Below are positions 1 through 5,909 of a stretch of DNA of 5,909 nucleotides, piece by piece. The DNA lies in contig WQUH01000095.1 in assembly GCA_009782165.1 (NCBI GenBank), positions 1-5,909 on the forward strand, in the 5' to 3' direction. The stretch is from Pseudomonadota bacterium (GTDB lineage: Bacteria > Desulfobacterota > Desulfobulbia > Desulfobulbales > Desulfobulbaceae). Positions within the stretch are counted from its first letter, which is position 1. Every line of letters begins with the position of its first letter. The notes below the pieces were generated by a model, which worked only from the letters and a program-made list of their open reading frames with translations, ran no database searches and was not told the DNA's origin. Position numbers and translations under genes: made by a program.

Positions 1-386
1 CGGTCTTCTTCCCTGGCCATCGCGGAGACAGCGCTCAGCGCATGGATCTTTTCCACCAGTTGCCTGATGTCCACCGGCTTCTCCAGGACATCGGCCGCGC
101 CCAGTTTCATGGCCTGGACCCCCTTGCTCACCGTGGCATGCCCGGTCAAGAGGATAATCTGTTGCGCGGGGTTGAAGGCGACAAGCTGTTCCAGCACCTG
201 CAGGCCATCCAGGTCGGGCATCTGCAGATCGAGCACGATCGCGTTGAACCATGTGGCGCGCACCAGGTCGAGGGCGGCCCGGCCCGAGGCCGTCGTTGTC
301 ACCTCCAGCCCCCGGATGGTCAACCGTTCCGCCAGGATGTCGAGAAATTCCTGATCGTCGTCGATCAGCAGCACAGTTACGGACAT
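1..386 (-). CDS. Response regulator receiver protein, 3' end beyond window (partial)
   Basis: The 128 visible residues form an almost complete receiver (REC) domain that should accept phosphate from a histidine protein. It begins MSVTVLLIDDDQEF. The acidic Mg-binding residues are D9-D11, the phosphoacceptor is Asp53 in IVLDLQMPDLDG, the conserved Thr81 is in LLTGH, and Lys103 is in EKPVD. The frame is still open at the left edge after about 125 residues, so a short tail or a further output domain could follow; no output function can be named. The ATG at 386 is supported by a GGAGG Shine-Dalgarno site 5 bases upstream. The gene starts 28 bases after the stop of the phosphotransferase-like gene, so it is probably the last visible member of the same operon and a candidate end-acceptor of the relay. 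The domain call is firm; the role is inferred. Confidence 0.93.
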   Translation of the reverse strand, partial: MSVTVLLIDDDQEFLDILAERLTIRGLEVTTTASGRAALDLVRATWFNAIVLDLQMPDLDGLQVLEQLVAFNPAQQIILLTGHATVSKGVQAMKLGAADVLEKPVDIRQLVEKIHALSAVSAMAREED

Positions 387-391
387 TCCAT

Positions 392-396
392 CCTCC
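392..396 (-). promoter_or_regulatory. Shine-Dalgarno site of the last receiver gene
   Basis: The minus strand reads GGAGG, 5 bases before the ATG at 386, in the 28-base gap after the preceding stop codon. It fixes the start. It also shows that this gene can be translated independently, unlike the two genes before it, which start inside their neighbours. Confidence 0.75.
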
Positions 397-414
397 GCCT
401 AGCCTCCAGCCGTT

Positions 415-1077
415 TTATTCGATGAATCTGATGGGCATGCGCAGGCGCAACGCGCTGTTCTGCGGATCGGCCTGAACCTGCATGTGGAGAAACAGGATCA
501 GCGGCTGCGCCTCGGCCGCCACCGTTGTCTCGAGTTGTTTGACCGGAATCTCGGGGGTGCAGCGCAGGGTCACGACGATATCGCTCGCCTCGGCATGCGC
601 GCCCAGAACGACCTGCTGCCCTGCTCCGGCCAGCAGGAAGATGTTCTTCAGACAGATCCACAACAGGTTCTCGACCACAAAGGCCAGCGTCTGCACCTCG
701 ATCTCGTCGCCGGGAGCGATCGACAGGCTCACTCCCTTCATGGAGGCCAGCCGTTCGGACAGGGCGATCGTGCAGGCGAAGATGTCGCGGATCCCCACGC
801 CGACAACGGGTTGGTTGGCGCTGTGGGCAAAGCGGTTGAGCCGGCGCACGATGTCGTCGGCGGTTTGCACCCGCCGCCGGATATTTTCCGCAATCGTCAG
901 CAGCCGTTCCGGCTTCAGCGGATGCCCTTTTTCCGACAGGGCGATCAGATCCCCGACCAACCCCGCGTTTTCGTTGATGATCGCCAGGGAGTTCTTGAGC
1001 TCGTGGGAGATGGAAGCGGTCATGCTGCCGAAAAAGCTCAAACCCAGGCTGTCGACTTTACCGTGATAACTGCTCAT
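415..1077 (-). CDS. Histidine-kinase-derived protein with DHp domain and degenerate ATPase domain; candidate phosphotransferase or phosphatase
   Basis: A 220-residue soluble protein with no membrane segment or sensor domain. Residues about 12-85 form a HisKA-type dimerisation and phosphoacceptor region with the H-box SISHELKNSLAIINENAG and His25. Glu26 and Asn29 keep the HExxN pattern used by HisKA proteins for phosphoryl transfer and receiver dephosphorylation. Residues about 95-220 sit where the catalytic ATPase domain should be. An N-box-like trace remains (around Asn145), but no DxGxG, F-box or GTGLGL motif is visible, so ATP binding is unlikely. This layout and length match Spo0B and ChpT, kinase-derived histidine phosphotransferases in known phosphorelays; homology to either is not claimed. 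The start ATG at 1077 overlaps the stop of the receiver gene (ATGA) and has a GGGAG site 7 bases upstream. Alternatives are a receiver-specific phosphatase or a decaying kinase, but the intact reading frame and conserved H-box argue against decay. Confidence 0.85.
   Translation of the reverse strand: MSSYHGKVDSLGLSFFGSMTASISHELKNSLAIINENAGLVGDLIALSEKGHPLKPERLLTIAENIRRRVQTADDIVRRLNRFAHSANQPVVGVGIRDIFACTIALSERLASMKGVSLSIAPGDEIEVQTLAFVVENLLWICLKNIFLLAGAGQQVVLGAHAEASDIVVTLRCTPEIPVKQLETTVAAEAQPLILFLHMQVQADPQNSALRLRMPIRFIE
968..1007. repeat. H-box copy in the phosphotransferase-like gene (40-base diverged repeat, copy 1)
   Basis: This stretch encodes residues around HELKNSLAIINEN and matches 2079-2118 at 35 of 40 bases by hand alignment. 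It is the same part of the H-box in two genes, so it reflects paralogy of the two DHp domains rather than a mobile repeat. Confidence 0.7.
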
Positions 1078-1448
1078 CCTTGTTCTCCCGGCCCCTGACA
1101 GACCTCATTGAGTTTGGCAACGAGCACCTCGATCTGTACCGGCTTGATCAGGTAGTAGTCCTTCCCGCTTTCAGCCGAACAGGCATTGAAATCCTCCTCC
1201 GAGCCGTGCCCGGTGAGGAAGATGAATTTCATTGCCGGCCGCCGGGCCTCGATCAGCCGCTTCAGTTCCAGGCCGTTGATCTCCGGCAAGCGGACATCCA
1301 GCAGGGCGATATCGAACTCCTGCTCCTCGACGATGGCCAGAGCCTTGCGGTATTCGGAGGCCCAGGTGGCATCGATGCCCCGCATATCCAACCGTTCGGC
1401 CAGGGTGGCCACCAATTCTTCTTCGTCGTCAACCAGCAGTACCCTCAT
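1074..1448 (-). CDS. Single-domain response regulator (stand-alone receiver)
   Basis: This 124-residue protein is a receiver domain with nothing attached, so it cannot act through its own DNA-binding or enzymatic domain. It starts MRVLLVDDEEEL. Asp7 and Asp8 form the metal site, Asp51 in LLDVRLPEING is the phosphoacceptor, Thr79 lies in FLTGHG, and Lys102 is in IKPVQ. Known stand-alone receivers work as phosphorelay intermediates (Spo0F), as protein-binding switches (CheY) or as phosphate sinks. Here it lies between a sensor kinase and a kinase-derived His protein, overlapping both by the 4-base ATGA arrangement, which suggests coupled translation and matched amounts. An AAGGAG site lies 7 bases before the start. 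The intermediate role is inferred from position. Confidence 0.96.
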   Translation of the reverse strand: MRVLLVDDEEELVATLAERLDMRGIDATWASEYRKALAIVEEQEFDIALLDVRLPEINGLELKRLIEARRPAMKFIFLTGHGSEEDFNACSAESGKDYYLIKPVQIEVLVAKLNEVCQGPGEQG

Positions 1449-3250
1449 TGAGCGTCTCCTTTGTCCGCATGGTAGTTGAGCGGCAGGGTGATGGTGAAGG
1501 TCGTCCCCACGCCGACAGTGCTTGCGAGGTCGATCGAGCCGCCAAGCTCCGTGACCAGGCCGTAGGTGATGGACAGCCCCAGGCCGGTGCCGCCGCTGCC
1601 GCCCTTGGTGGTAAAGAAGGGATCGAAGATCTTGCCGAGGTTCTCCGGGGGGATGCCGCAGCCGGTGTCGCGCACCGTGGTGACGATCCGGGCGCCGTCG
1701 TCGGTCAGCCGGCTTCTGATCGAAAGGCGTCCGCCTTCTTTCATGGCGGCAAAGGCGTTGTTGACCAGGTTGATGAACACCTGTTGCAGTTTACCACGAT
1801 CGCTGGAAAATTCAGGCAGTTCTTCAGGAATGTCGACATCGAGAGTAATATTGCGGGCGCTGGCCGCCTTGGTCTGGAATTCCAGCACCTCGTTCACCAC
1901 CTTGCGCAGATGGAGGGTCTGGATATTGGCCTGGATATTGCGGGCAAAACTCAGCAGTTGCCGGGTGATGGTCGCGCACCGGTCGACCGAGGAGATGATC
2001 GCGTCGATCAGGCCGATCAGGCGCTGGTCGGCCGCGTACTCCTTGCGGAAGGTGAACAGATCCTTGATGAGGCCGGCCTTTTCGTTGATGATGGCCAGGG
2101 GATTGTTGATCTCGTGGGCCACGCCCGCGGACAGCCGGCCGATCGAGGCCATCTTGTTGGCGAATTCCGCCTGATGCAGGGAGGCGAGGCGGTTCTGGTC
2201 GGCCTGGTGGATGCTGTTGACCAGATAGGTGCAGATGCCGACAACCACCGCCACAATGGTCAACACCGAACCGACGAGAAAAAGCAGCAGATTGCCCCCG
2301 GTCCTCCAGGTTTCCACCGCCATGCCGTCCTTCTGCTTGATCACCACGAGGATAAACGGCGTACCGGCAAGATAGGCATAACCGGTAACGATTTCCCGGC
2401 CCGTATGGTCCCGGCCTTCGATAACCCGGGACCGTTGGCCCTCGACACCGTGGGTCTGTTCCGAAAACGGCGGCACCGGCAGGGGGAACTGGTGCATGAT
2501 GGCGCCGTAATGCCGCGACGGGGTCTGGATAATCCCTTCCTGGTTGATGAGGAAGGCATCGTCGTCGTCGCCGAGTTCGGCATGGTGGGAGAGAATGTCG
2601 CTCAACTGCTGGATGTCGAGACCGGCCCGGAGGATGTAGTGCCGCCCCTGGTGGTCGTTGTGCAGTACGGAGATGACCAGGTGGGGGGTCATTCTGAAGC
2701 CGAGGAACACATCGCTGATATTGGACCGCATGGCAATGGCGTCATGGTAGGTCTCCTGGTCCTTGTACTGCAGATTCTTGTACCAGTCCTGGCCGCTGTA
2801 ATCCATGCCCCGGATATTGTAGGGGCCGGTATAGTTGACCTGCATGCCGGTATGGTCGATCAGGCCGAGATCGTACCATTCTCCCAGGCCGCTTTTCAGG
2901 TTTTCGAGGAGCTGTTTCAACCGGTGTTCATCGGACAGTTGCTCAAAGCTGTTGTCGAGAATGAGAAAATTGAGCGCAAAGACCCGCTCTTCCAAGTAGG
3001 AGGTCAGGCTGCGGCGCAGGTTGGAGACCAGGCGGGTGGTGCGCAGCGCCAGCTCAGACTCGATGGCCTTTCTGCTGATGGCGTAATCGACCGCGGCCAG
3101 GGTAAACAACGGCAGCAGGGCAACGGCAAGGGTGATGACGATGGATTGTTTCCACAGCCGCCTGAAGTTGAACAGCGTCTTGTACATGCCGGACGTCTGC
3201 TCGGAATGCTCGAGAAATTTAGGTCGATACCGCTTCCATCCATTCTGCAT
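1445..3250 (-). CDS. Membrane sensor histidine kinase, double-Cache-like sensor with HisKA and HATPase domains
   Basis: This 601-residue protein should sense an extracytoplasmic signal and autophosphorylate on His379. Membrane helices lie at about 36-56 and 320-344. The roughly 260 residues between them look like a dCache domain, with WYDLGLIDHTGMQVNYTGPY near 125-144, then DWYKN and a second PAS-like half near 230-308. No HAMP domain is evident; a short linker (about 345-365) leads to the H-box GVAHEINNPLAIINEKAG. The catalytic domain is complete: N-box with Asn498, DTGCGIP (528-534), FDPFFTTK (542-549) and GGTGLGLS (553-560). The start at 3250 has only a weak GTGAG site 8 bases upstream. 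Met22 (3187) would keep both membrane helices, but its upstream sequence is no better. The stop overlaps the next start (ATGA). The ligand is unknown. A 177-base gap upstream could hold a promoter. Confidence 0.95.
   Translation of the reverse strand: MQNGWKRYRPKFLEHSEQTSGMYKTLFNFRRLWKQSIVITLAVALLPLFTLAAVDYAISRKAIESELALRTTRLVSNLRRSLTSYLEERVFALNFLILDNSFEQLSDEHRLKQLLENLKSGLGEWYDLGLIDHTGMQVNYTGPYNIRGMDYSGQDWYKNLQYKDQETYHDAIAMRSNISDVFLGFRMTPHLVISVLHNDHQGRHYILRAGLDIQQLSDILSHHAELGDDDDAFLINQEGIIQTPSRHYGAIMHQFPLPVPPFSEQTHGVEGQRSRVIEGRDHTGREIVTGYAYLAGTPFILVVIKQKDGMAVETWRTGGNLLLFLVGSVLTIVAVVVGICTYLVNSIHQADQNRLASLHQAEFANKMASIGRLSAGVAHEINNPLAIINEKAGLIKDLFTFRKEYAADQRLIGLIDAIISSVDRCATITRQLLSFARNIQANIQTLHLRKVVNEVLEFQTKAASARNITLDVDIPEELPEFSSDRGKLQQVFINLVNNAFAAMKEGGRLSIRSRLTDDGARIVTTVRDTGCGIPPENLGKIFDPFFTTKGGSGGTGLGLSITYGLVTELGGSIDLASTVGVGTTFTITLPLNYHADKGDAQ
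1456..1461 (-). promoter_or_regulatory. Shine-Dalgarno site of the stand-alone receiver, inside the kinase gene
   Basis: AAGGAG on the minus strand, 7 bases before the ATG at 1448, lies within the last codons of the kinase. It supports the overlapping start and fresh ribosome loading as well as termination-reinitiation at the ATGA. Confidence 0.7.
2079..2118. repeat. H-box copy in the sensor kinase gene (40-base diverged repeat, copy 2)
   Basis: This partner of 968-1007 encodes residues around HEINNPLAIINEK of the full-length kinase. Five of 40 bases differ, and several differences change amino acids (for example Pro to Ser after the paired Asn). Confidence 0.7.
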
Positions 3251-3427: not shown

Positions 3428-4654
3428 TCAGGAACCCTGCTGCTGCTGACGGCGGAGCGTGATCTTCTCGTTGGCCTTTTTCATGGTCTCGCTCAGGATG
3501 TCGATATCCACCGGTTTCTGGAGGTAGGCGAAGGCGCCGAGCTGCATGCAGATTTCCCGGTCGGATTCGTTGCCGTGGCCGGTGAGAATGATGACCTCGA
3601 TCTCCGGCTGGGAGGCTTTGACCTGCCGCAGCACCTCCATGCCGTCGATGCCGGGCATCTTCAGGTCGAGGATCATGACGTCGGGCTCGTCCTCGCGCAG
3701 CATCTCCAGGGCCGATTCACCGTCGTAGGCCACCGCCGAGCCCATGTCGCGGAGCAGCAGCCGCTCCGACAGGGTCTGGACAAATTCGCGCTCGTCGTCC
3801 ACCAGCAGAACCCGGGCAGGCGCCTGGAAATCGAGCTTGCGGTAGATGTCCGCCTGATGGAAATTCTTGCCGATCTCGGTGTCCACGGACCGGACGCCAT
3901 CGATTTTGCCCACGATCTCCTTGAGCTCCTGTTCAAGCCGGTTCAGCATGAGCACATTCTTTTCGATGGTCAGGGTGACCGCGCCCTCCTTGACGGTCAC
4001 GGTCACCTCGTGTCCTTCCAGGGTCAGGGCGACCAGGATCCTGGCCTGGAGCTGGAAATCGGCCAGAGCGGCCCGCGAGGCCTCGGTCGGGGCCAGCACG
4101 TCGGTGTGGAGATTGCGGACCACGAGCTGCATGGATTCCTGCGCCCCGATCTTGTCGGTGGGGATGATGATGTCGTACAGGGTCGGATCCCAGGGATCCT
4201 TTTTGCCGGTCATCTGCTGCACCCACGCGGTCTTGTCCTCGTCGCTCCTGTAGATCGCCTTGAGCGGATCTTTTTCCAGCCCCTGGGACTGCGCCAGCTT
4301 GACCCGGTATGCCATGTCCGCGATCAGGCAAACGCGCAGGACGTGCGAGATCGAGGCGGGAATGAAGTGACAGCAGAAACCGGTGACGATCATATCGCCC
4401 TCGGCAAGGATATCGGCCATCGCCTGACGGAGATAGGCGACGGACCGCTCTTTTTCATGGGTGAACGGGTTGAACAGCGATGTTTTGGCGGAAAAGGCCC
4501 TGCTGATCCGCTCCGGGGAGATCCCGGACATCTTGCCGGCCCGGTCGGCGACCTCGCCGTCGCGGACCAGGCGATAGCCGGTTTTGTCCATGAGTTGCGG
4601 AATAATCGACTCTTCGTTGCAATGGAGGGCGTTGAACACGGTAAGTACGGACAT
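3428..4654 (-). CDS. Cytidylate-kinase-like (P-loop-degraded) / BON-like / receiver fusion protein
   Basis: A soluble 408-residue protein in three parts. Residues about 1-185 resemble the cytidylate-kinase-2 family: the later region is typical (HVLRVCLIADMAYRVKLAQ, then RSDEDKTAWVQQMTG, then DPTLYDIIIPTDKIG). However, the expected N-terminal SREYGSGG-type P-loop is replaced by NALHCNEES (8-16), so nucleotide kinase activity is doubtful. Residues about 201-262 resemble a BON domain (VTVTVKEGAVTLTI, then GKIDGVRSVDTEIG). Residues 280-400 are a receiver: Asp286/287, phosphoacceptor Asp330 in MILDLKMPGIDG, Thr358 in ILTGHG, Lys380 in QKPVD. The receiver is at the C-terminus, so phosphorylation may control the N-terminal module, possibly through binding rather than catalysis. 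The ATG at 4654 follows the transporter stop by 12 bases and has an AGAGAGG site 6 bases upstream, so the two genes are probably cotranscribed. The receiver call is firm, the kinase-fold call good, and the BON call moderate. Confidence 0.9.
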   Translation of the reverse strand: MSVLTVFNALHCNEESIIPQLMDKTGYRLVRDGEVADRAGKMSGISPERISRAFSAKTSLFNPFTHEKERSVAYLRQAMADILAEGDMIVTGFCCHFIPASISHVLRVCLIADMAYRVKLAQSQGLEKDPLKAIYRSDEDKTAWVQQMTGKKDPWDPTLYDIIIPTDKIGAQESMQLVVRNLHTDVLAPTEASRAALADFQLQARILVALTLEGHEVTVTVKEGAVTLTIEKNVLMLNRLEQELKEIVGKIDGVRSVDTEIGKNFHQADIYRKLDFQAPARVLLVDDEREFVQTLSERLLLRDMGSAVAYDGESALEMLREDEPDVMILDLKMPGIDGMEVLRQVKASQPEIEVIILTGHGNESDREICMQLGAFAYLQKPVDIDILSETMKKANEKITLRRQQQQGS

Positions 4655-4660
4655 GGGATT

Positions 4661-4667
4661 CCTCTCT
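4661..4667 (-). promoter_or_regulatory. Shine-Dalgarno site of the pseudo-kinase/receiver gene
   Basis: AGAGAGG on the minus strand lies 6 bases before the ATG at 4654 and touches the stop codon of the transporter gene (4669-4667). It supports the chosen start and tight operon coupling with the transporter. Confidence 0.7.
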
Positions 4668-5909
4668 TATGGATGAATAATCTCGGGTTGGGGATCGCGG
4701 CCCAGGGGACAGATCTGCATTTCTTCCTGGGTGTGGATGGCCGGATGGATCACCTTCAGGGCAGCCTCCATGGTCGGAAAGACATGATCGGCGCCGATTT
4801 TGCTGTACAGATGGGTGCGGAGCAGCACCGTCATCACCGTTTCGTTGATGCCGCTGATGGAGACATCGATGTTGGCGCTGCGCAGCCGGTCGACCAGCAG
4901 AGACAGGGTCTCTTCGCCGGAGGCGTCGATATCGTTGATGCCGTTGGCCACGATCAGGATGTGGCGCAGGGTGATCTTGCACAGCATCAGGTCGGAGATC
5001 TTGTCTTCGAGATAGCTGGCGTTGGCGAAAAAGAGCGGACCTTCGAAGCGGATGATCGACAGATACCTGCACTCCTCCATGCCCTTGGTGATCGCGCAGA
5101 TCAGCACCCGGCTGCGGTCCCGGGTCAGCGAGGTCACCACCGGACGCATGCTTTTGTACAGGAACACCGTCAGGCAGAGCGCCACGCCCAGCATGATGCC
5201 CTTGTCGAGATGGGGCGCAAACCAGAGGGTACAGACAAAGGAGAGGATGGAAATGAGGCCGTCGTACCACTGCGCCCTCCAGGCGTGGAGAAAACCGGAG
5301 ACGTTGATCAGGCCCACCACGGCCATCATGATGATGGCCGCCAACACCGACTGCGGCAGATGGTAGAGGAGCGGGGTGAAGAACATCAGCGCGACCACCA
5401 CGATCAGACTGGTGAACACGCTCGACATGCCGGTGGCGGCGCCGGCCTGGAGGTTGACCGCCGAGCGGGAAAACGAACCGGAGGCCGGATAGCTCTTGCC
5501 GATGGAGCCGAGGATGTTGGCCAGCCCCTGGCCGATCAGTTCCTGATTGGGATCGAGGCGTTGGCCGGTCTTGCCGGCAATGGCCTTGGCGATCGAAATC
5601 GCCTCCATGAAGCCGAGCAGCGAGATGATGGCGGCGTAGGGGAACAGGTGGACCATGACGCTCAAGTCAACCTTGGGCACGGTCAGCGCCGGCAAGCCCT
5701 TGGGCACCACGCCGACCACCTCGCCGCCGCCGGTCATGGGCACCTTGTCGAGCTTGATGGGGCTGTTGCCCACCCGGATGCGCCAGATCCTGTCGTCGGT
5801 TTTCGCCCCTTCCGGCAACTCGTCGGCCAGATAGTAGAGGAGGCTGTTGTCGGGCTGGATCGCCGCCTTGAACAGGAGCAGCCGGATCGTTTCCCGGTAG
5901 ATGCGGGCC
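4667..5909 (-). CDS. SulP-family anion transporter with C-terminal STAS domain (partial, 5' end beyond window)
   Basis: The 413 visible residues are the C-terminal part of an inner-membrane SulP protein, a family that moves sulfate, bicarbonate, dicarboxylates or related anions; the substrate cannot be read from sequence. Family signatures are VGVVPKGLPAL (about 65-75), LLGFMEAISIAKAIAGKTG (about 97-115), and ELIGQGLANILGS followed by SYPASGSFSRSAVNLQAGAA. Hydrophobic segments follow at about 161-182, 183-202 and 216-252. The STAS domain covers about 280-390. ANGINDIDASGEETL places Ser330 at the position of the serine phosphorylated in SpoIIAA. At least 60 mostly hydrophilic residues precede the VPKGLP motif, where shorter family members have a membrane helix close by. 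The frame is open to the right edge, so the TTG at 5818 is internal. The stop is TAA at 4669-4667, 12 bases before the next gene. Confidence 0.95.
   Translation of the reverse strand, partial: ARIYRETIRLLLFKAAIQPDNSLLYYLADELPEGAKTDDRIWRIRVGNSPIKLDKVPMTGGGEVVGVVPKGLPALTVPKVDLSVMVHLFPYAAIISLLGFMEAISIAKAIAGKTGQRLDPNQELIGQGLANILGSIGKSYPASGSFSRSAVNLQAGAATGMSSVFTSLIVVVALMFFTPLLYHLPQSVLAAIIMMAVVGLINVSGFLHAWRAQWYDGLISILSFVCTLWFAPHLDKGIMLGVALCLTVFLYKSMRPVVTSLTRDRSRVLICAITKGMEECRYLSIIRFEGPLFFANASYLEDKISDLMLCKITLRHILIVANGINDIDASGEETLSLLVDRLRSANIDVSISGINETVMTVLLRTHLYSKIGADHVFPTMEAALKVIHPAIHTQEEMQICPLGRDPQPEIIHP

Follow-up and report, generated by a model that had tools for sequence, protein, structure and literature searches.

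A candidate Spo0B/ChpT-like phosphorelay encoded beside a SulP-family transporter in Desulfobulbaceae

What is the function of a small kinase-like protein that carries a candidate phosphate-accepting histidine and no usable ATPase domain? The question is raised by a 5,909-base contig of a Desulfobulbaceae bacterium (WQUH01000095.1, assembly GCA_009782165.1), which in its entirety forms the window analysed here. Its genes run on the minus strand in the order SulP-CMK-REC-HK-REC2-sHP-REC4: a SulP-family transporter, a protein with a receiver domain (CMK-REC), a sensor kinase (HK), a lone receiver (REC2), the protein in question (sHP) and a further receiver (REC4), the two outermost genes being cut by the contig ends. 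We propose that this operon probably acts as a phosphorelay of the Spo0B/ChpT kind, in which the dCache kinase, the lone receiver, sHP and two further receivers control the neighbouring SulP transporter. An earlier note on this DNA had proposed a four-step relay from HK through REC2 and sHP to REC4. Its acceptor residues (His379, Asp51, His25 and Asp53) and its gene junctions (ATGA overlaps at HK/REC2 and at REC2/sHP, then 28 bases between sHP and REC4) proved exact when the sequence was re-read. All four components are indeed present, but REC4 is truncated by the contig end and the system extends past position 3250, with CMK-REC and SulP upstream on the same strand.

The comparison of sHP with kinases provides the first part of the answer. 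Against Pfam HisKA the window protein scores 22.3 bits, under the cut-off of 26.9, and Pfam gives no HATPase match at E<=1. The AlphaFold2 model (pLDDT 91.2) consists of a two-helix DHp hairpin and an alpha/beta ATPase-like domain, and structure searches with this model match kinases, in line with a kinase-like fold. A search of 95 relatives and 257 genomes of the class led to 120 stretches being taken, 12 of them picked for genomes without a strong sHP match; together with the window these make 121 loci, which yielded 108 scored sHP loci (all locus and genome counts given here are raw). The sHP histidine is conserved in all 108, as are Asn at H+4 and Glu at H+11, and H+1 is Glu or Asp in 107. 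Among a total of 148 sHPs, H[ED]xxN is kept in 147, whereas the ATP-binding motifs are gone: GxGLG is found in none of them (against 141/141 HKs) and the DxGxG pattern in five (again against 141/141). Proline at H+5 is present in 103/103 HKs and in a single sHP of the 148, that of locus L186; Spo0B, likewise, is not known to have a proline there. In the window HK itself the ATPase boxes are all intact (N at 494, DxGxG at 528 and GxGL at 554). The earlier description of sHP as a DHp protein without a usable ATPase domain holds, given the missing HATPase match, the absent GxGLG and the invariant histidine. Judged by its sequence and its model, sHP is a putative DHp-type kinase-derived phosphotransferase, with a kinase-like fold, a retained histidine and lost ATP-binding motifs.

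Models of the known phosphotransferase families do not recognise the protein. At E<=1 there is no match to Pfam HPTransfase, which we take to be the ChpT family, for the window sHP or for three relatives, and none of sHP to the Pfam SPOB models, presumably the Spo0B family, or to the Hpt model (a monomeric four-helix bundle). Among the matches listed, the structure searches name neither Spo0B nor ChpT, which excludes nothing, and a profile search of PDB gave kinases and one unrelated chain but no Spo0B. Stop codons were flagged within some sHP matches; in L055 and L058 the end of the match is the gene's own stop. A second histidine of sHP, His85 (window 823-825), located towards the end of DHp helix 2, is nearly invariant as well (107/108); HKs mostly have Arg at this position.

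REC2 is located directly upstream of sHP, or fused to it, in 107 of the 108 class loci (107/109 if L075 is counted, an sHP-like gene without the triad that we excluded). HK is present in 104, the misses being two loci at contig ends, L057 (REC-sHP-REC without an adjacent kinase) and the divergent L186. Because REC2 and HK accompany sHP so regularly, the linkage is not due to chance. For nine loci REC2 had seemed to be missing between HK and sHP; this was ruled out, since an intact receiver is found in all nine. The earlier note had asked whether the four genes stay together in relatives: REC2 and HK do, but REC4 lies downstream in only 39/108. The residues needed are intact as well: the N, DxGxG and GxGL boxes in 104/104 HK orthologues, the phospho-Asp, Lys and Thr/Ser of REC2 each in 107/107, and the acceptors at all four steps (HK His in 103/103 loci with a letter there, REC2 Asp 107/107, sHP His 108/108, REC4 Asp 39/39 and CMK-REC Asp 63/63).

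Similar linkage is observed in a phylum sample, where sHP was found in a short frame at E<=1e-30 in 65 of 395 genomes. Of such loci, 40 were taken from outside the order: all 40 have a receiver as the gene immediately upstream of sHP, and 37 have HK; at L316 and L324 this receiver is that of CMK-REC. In 35/40, as read from the gene listing, a receiver on the same strand is the first gene that the profiles detect after sHP. REC2 and sHP also occur as single polypeptides of 342-349 amino acids (aa), in at least 11 protein clusters and at loci L050 and L108; L144, where a receiver without its T and K part is joined to sHP, was left out of this count. A search of genome contigs gave one locus, and the viral contigs searched contained no relative.

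The surfaces through which the partners would dock are alike too. In genome G022, where 30 of 67 HisKA matches and locus L040 were compared, sHP and HK have an almost identical alpha-1 helix after the histidine (EIKNSLAIINENAGLLGDL vs EINNPLAIINEKAGLIKDL). On this helix the two are mutually best among the 33 other DHp domains compared; over the remaining aligned part they rank 15th and 30th. Receivers were compared using the 30 best-scoring of 41 matches in G000 and of 107 in G022, each with the operon added. On alpha-1, each of REC2, REC4 and CMK-REC has the other two as its closest matches, among 32 other receivers in G000 and 34 in G022.

REC2 is furthermore distinguished by a motif, F-x-[ST]-G-[HY], which occurs in 47/107 class loci and 22/38 phylum loci (L316 and L324 left out) and is carried by the window REC2 as FxTGH. 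Elsewhere it is nearly absent (REC4 0/39, CMK-REC 0/63, other receivers 1/62). Its Phe is found in 42/44 REC2 of the SulP or CMK type against 1/43 of the sigma-54 type; the receivers that accompany HK at loci without sHP all lack it. According to excerpts of PMC9981736, such a motif is found in several intermediary receivers and in CpdR, its significance being unsettled there. Overall, the predicted role of sHP in a relay is well supported by comparison, through the invariant histidine, the lost ATPase boxes, the REC2-sHP fusions, the shared docking helices and the phylum-wide linkage.

In the proposed relay HK would autophosphorylate on His379, the signal at its Cache domain perhaps being sulfate, and the phosphate would pass to Asp51 of REC2. 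Phosphorylated REC2 would in turn phosphorylate His25 of a dimeric sHP, from which the phosphate would reach the receiver of CMK-REC and, where present, also Asp53 of REC4. The phosphorylated output proteins would then contact the transporter or its regulators, not promoters. Contact rather than promoter action is likely because a DNA-binding domain is seen in none of the operon's receivers (by Pfam, with complete REC4 and REC2 relatives also scanned). The predicted four-step relay next to SulP would likely tune sulfate uptake. The argument that gene order mirrors the order of phosphate flow was dropped as untestable.

Several observations weigh against a relay. H-E-x-x-N would fit a phosphatase equally well, and the divergent sHP of L186 is without Glu or Asp at H+1 and has the proline at H+5. 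The helix-1 likeness of sHP and HK could also mean common descent or mixed dimers. Outside alpha-1, the pairs among REC2, REC4 and CMK-REC rank 1st to 13th among the receivers compared, so that part of their likeness is general. Covariation of HK or sHP with each receiver (weighted mutual information with average product correction) gives 30 top pairs of which 0-2 fall within the docking block, where the expectation is 0.2-0.4; this does not suffice for a claim. The counts ignore kinship; REC4 is absent downstream in 69/108 loci, and 17/108 show no other receiver at all in the fetched stretch, some stretches being short or cut. Finally, nine HK-REC pairs of the same type (HK defined by the helix L[AS]II-x-x-K-x-GL) have no sHP within 1.5 kb downstream (L078, L176-L179 and L181-L184). 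No rate can be given for them, because these loci were either sought out deliberately or met among weak matches; L175 was not listed as its contig ends 102 bases past the receiver. The earlier note had held that clusters consistently lacking the 220-residue protein would speak against its relay, and these pairs go part of the way, the absence not being consistent. As a separate observation, next to several of the nine lies another kinase (helix HEINNPLQIIGDQAGW) that has a lone receiver to itself.

The alternative that survives best regards sHP as a phosphatase (or a sink for phosphate) dedicated to REC2 and the other receivers, a kinase relative which lost its autokinase and kept the H-E-x-x-N surface; the pathway would in that case amount to a two-component pair plus a brake. 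H[ED]xxN, the phosphatase motif of the HisKA class, is kept in all sHPs but one, and orthologous HK-REC pairs do exist without sHP. However, a phosphatase need not depend on the histidine that is invariant in all 108 loci. Moreover, two or more receivers with a common alpha-1 stand beside sHP, and REC2 itself lacks an output domain and carries the intermediary-type motif. We consider a phosphatase unlikely.

A second alternative concerns the end of the relay. The order HK-REC2-sHP-REC4 in the window, and the downstream receiver in 27/33 SulP-type loci and in the 35 phylum loci mentioned above, would agree with a linear relay that ends only at REC4, CMK-REC belonging to another pathway. But CMK-REC, the gene before the kinase, lies upstream in 33/33 SulP-type loci and has the shared alpha-1 surface, whereas REC4 is missing in six of them (two of the six cut by a contig end); CMK-REC also stands directly before sHP in L316 and L324. 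At L049 no REC4 lies downstream, and CMK-REC is the acceptor predicted there. These counts and the shared surface do not support a flow ending only at REC4 as the full account, and we regard it as quite improbable. Of the relay drawn in the earlier note, sHP as a Spo0B/ChpT-like phosphotransferase is well supported by comparison, and the linear flow as a complete account is not; the likely main output, CMK-REC, lies beyond the region which that note covered. The weakest alternative, a regulatory pseudokinase that carries no phosphate and sets HK activity through mixed dimers, such as RetS forms with GacS, could draw on the nearly identical DHp helix 1, also part of dimer formation, but is very hard to reconcile with fusions that join sHP to REC2 and not to HK, with the invariant histidine and H+4 Asn, and with REC-sHP-REC at L057 without an adjacent HK.

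Returning to the relay with CMK-REC as its predicted main output, CMK-REC and sHP are found largely in the same genomes: sHP is present in 47/50 genomes with a strong CMK-REC match against 18/345 without one (395 genomes). The exceptions are G298, with a match 2.4 kb from the contig start (known from coordinates only), G297, an incomplete draft (67%) with no triad within the 4.7 kb fetched, and G436 (L332:5274-5801), with no triad within 5.8 kb and a receiver whose acidic pair is DK, not DD. The CMK part of the window protein shows no recognisable Walker A motif, and its BON-like stretch is a sub-threshold Pfam match. A receiver follows STAS in 3/58 SulP frames (L317:11752-14292, L327:1447-3984 and L315:10926-13340, the last cut by the stretch end), and the alpha-1 of these SulP-fused receivers is close to that of CMK-REC. 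With no DNA-binding domain seen in any operon receiver and a receiver present on three SulP frames, the transporter may plausibly be controlled directly; as far as the sequences indicate, protein contact would plausibly be the more economical output. In its furthest form, which we put forward only tentatively and with some doubt, the relay would end at the membrane transporter: HK-REC2-sHP would feed CMK-REC, REC4 or, in some species, the SulP-fused receiver, gating sulfate entry directly and reversibly with no gene switching, and sHP would belong to a separately evolved family of kinase-derived phosphotransferases spread through the phylum. At those sigma-54-type loci that were scanned, a PAS-sigma54 activator and a DASS/CitMHS-type transporter are found close to the triad, and control there may be transcriptional. 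The 44 loci of the sigma-54 type include three with a downstream REC4.

To our knowledge, kinase-derived phosphotransferases have been described in few lineages (Spo0B, ChpT and PhyT). The Spo0F-Spo0B-Spo0A relay of Bacillus subtilis (well known, and mentioned in excerpts of PMC5898713 and PMC9981736) is similarly made of a separate kinase, a lone receiver, a dimeric DHp-type phosphotransferase with a degenerate ATPase-like part and a further receiver. In contrast to the Spo0 relay, a single operon encodes all parts here and the final receivers have no DNA-binding domain; by profile, sHP matches kinases and not Spo0B. The CckA-ChpT-CtrA/CpdR relay of Caulobacter also uses a kinase-like dimeric phosphotransferase, with the ATP lid of ChpT replaced by a helix, and ends in at least two receivers, a lone receiver among them (excerpts of PMC3433190 and PMC9981736). 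According to the same excerpts, the phosphate donor of ChpT is a receiver fused to the kinase, whereas here the donor receiver is separate or fused to the phosphotransferase; unlike ChpT, sHP has no Pfam HPTransfase match. SdrG-PhyT-PhyR of Sphingomonas shares the lone receiver between a kinase and a kinase-derived phosphotransferase with a degenerate ATPase domain, but in the excerpted text PhyT is anchored in the membrane, has a sensor part and HRxxN, and governs a stress sigma pathway (PMC5898713); sHP has 220 aa, neither anchor nor sensor, and HExxN. The system described here would be a new lineage within a known type of relay, and its output, possibly a non-transcriptional one, would be unusual.

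For Desulfobacteraceae, excerpts of PMC11887813 describe sulfate-uptake clusters in which SulP or DASS transporters stand with Cache sensor kinases, WalR-type regulators and CBS proteins, and suggest sulfate as the signal. Probably these represent the same kind of neighbourhood, likened by description and not by locus orthology. The model given in those excerpts leads from a kinase to a WalR-type regulator acting on promoters, unlike the relay proposed here, and the words phosphorelay, phosphotransferase and receiver are absent from the main text of that paper. Gene-context terms had no match in PMC5840216, and a 2025 phosphorelay review (PMC12189002) makes no mention of Spo0B, ChpT or sulfate. 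In a literature search by titles and the beginnings of abstracts, with subscription papers and preprints outside its range, no paper was recognised as describing an HK-REC2-sHP relay. The importance of the system lies in the occurrence of sHP through Desulfobulbus relatives, where its gene shares an operon with those of the kinase, the intermediate and the acceptors and adjoins SulP or DASS transporters. If the proposal is true, the published model of sulfate uptake (one kinase, one regulator) would turn into a relay that can be tested. The fusions of SulP with a receiver suggest that the transporter, as the entry step of a respiration of global importance, is itself under direct control. Each step is easy to test, the relay proteins being small and separate.

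Table 1. Genes of the window, with the role predicted for each in the relay. Positions are those of the 5,909-base contig.
Gene	Position	Strand	Length	Acceptor	Domains	Predicted role
SulP-family transporter, STAS domain	4667-5908	-			Pfam Sulfate_transp and STAS; start cut	target
CMK-REC	3428-4654	-			Pfam Cytidylate_kin2 and Response_reg; BON-like stretch	main terminal acceptor and output
HK	1445-3250	-	601 aa	His379	dCache_1, HisKA and HATPase_c, each above the Pfam cut-off	phosphate source, membrane sensor kinase
REC2	1074-1448	-	124 aa	Asp51	Pfam Response_reg only	intermediate, single-domain receiver
sHP	415-1077	-	220 aa	His25	DHp and ATPase-like domain	dimeric phosphotransferase
REC4	3-386	-	128 aa visible	Asp53	Pfam Response_reg	terminal acceptor where present

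Some loci have a composition of their own. In the relatives, downstream receivers mostly measure 140-184 aa, and at L043:5250-6959 (genome G003) REC4 is followed by a 569-aa fusion of a receiver with hexapeptide repeats. Past REC4, on the opposite strand, L039:10410-14923 contains another dCache kinase (560 aa) and a PPDK_N/PEP-utilizer protein (871 aa); L040 and L042 have similarly sized genes at this place. Divergent relatives of sHP occur at L186:6438-8889, where two sHP-like genes flank two receivers, and at L180:6558-7244, with the arrangement HK-REC-sHP-like-REC and an sHP-like match of 53 bits.

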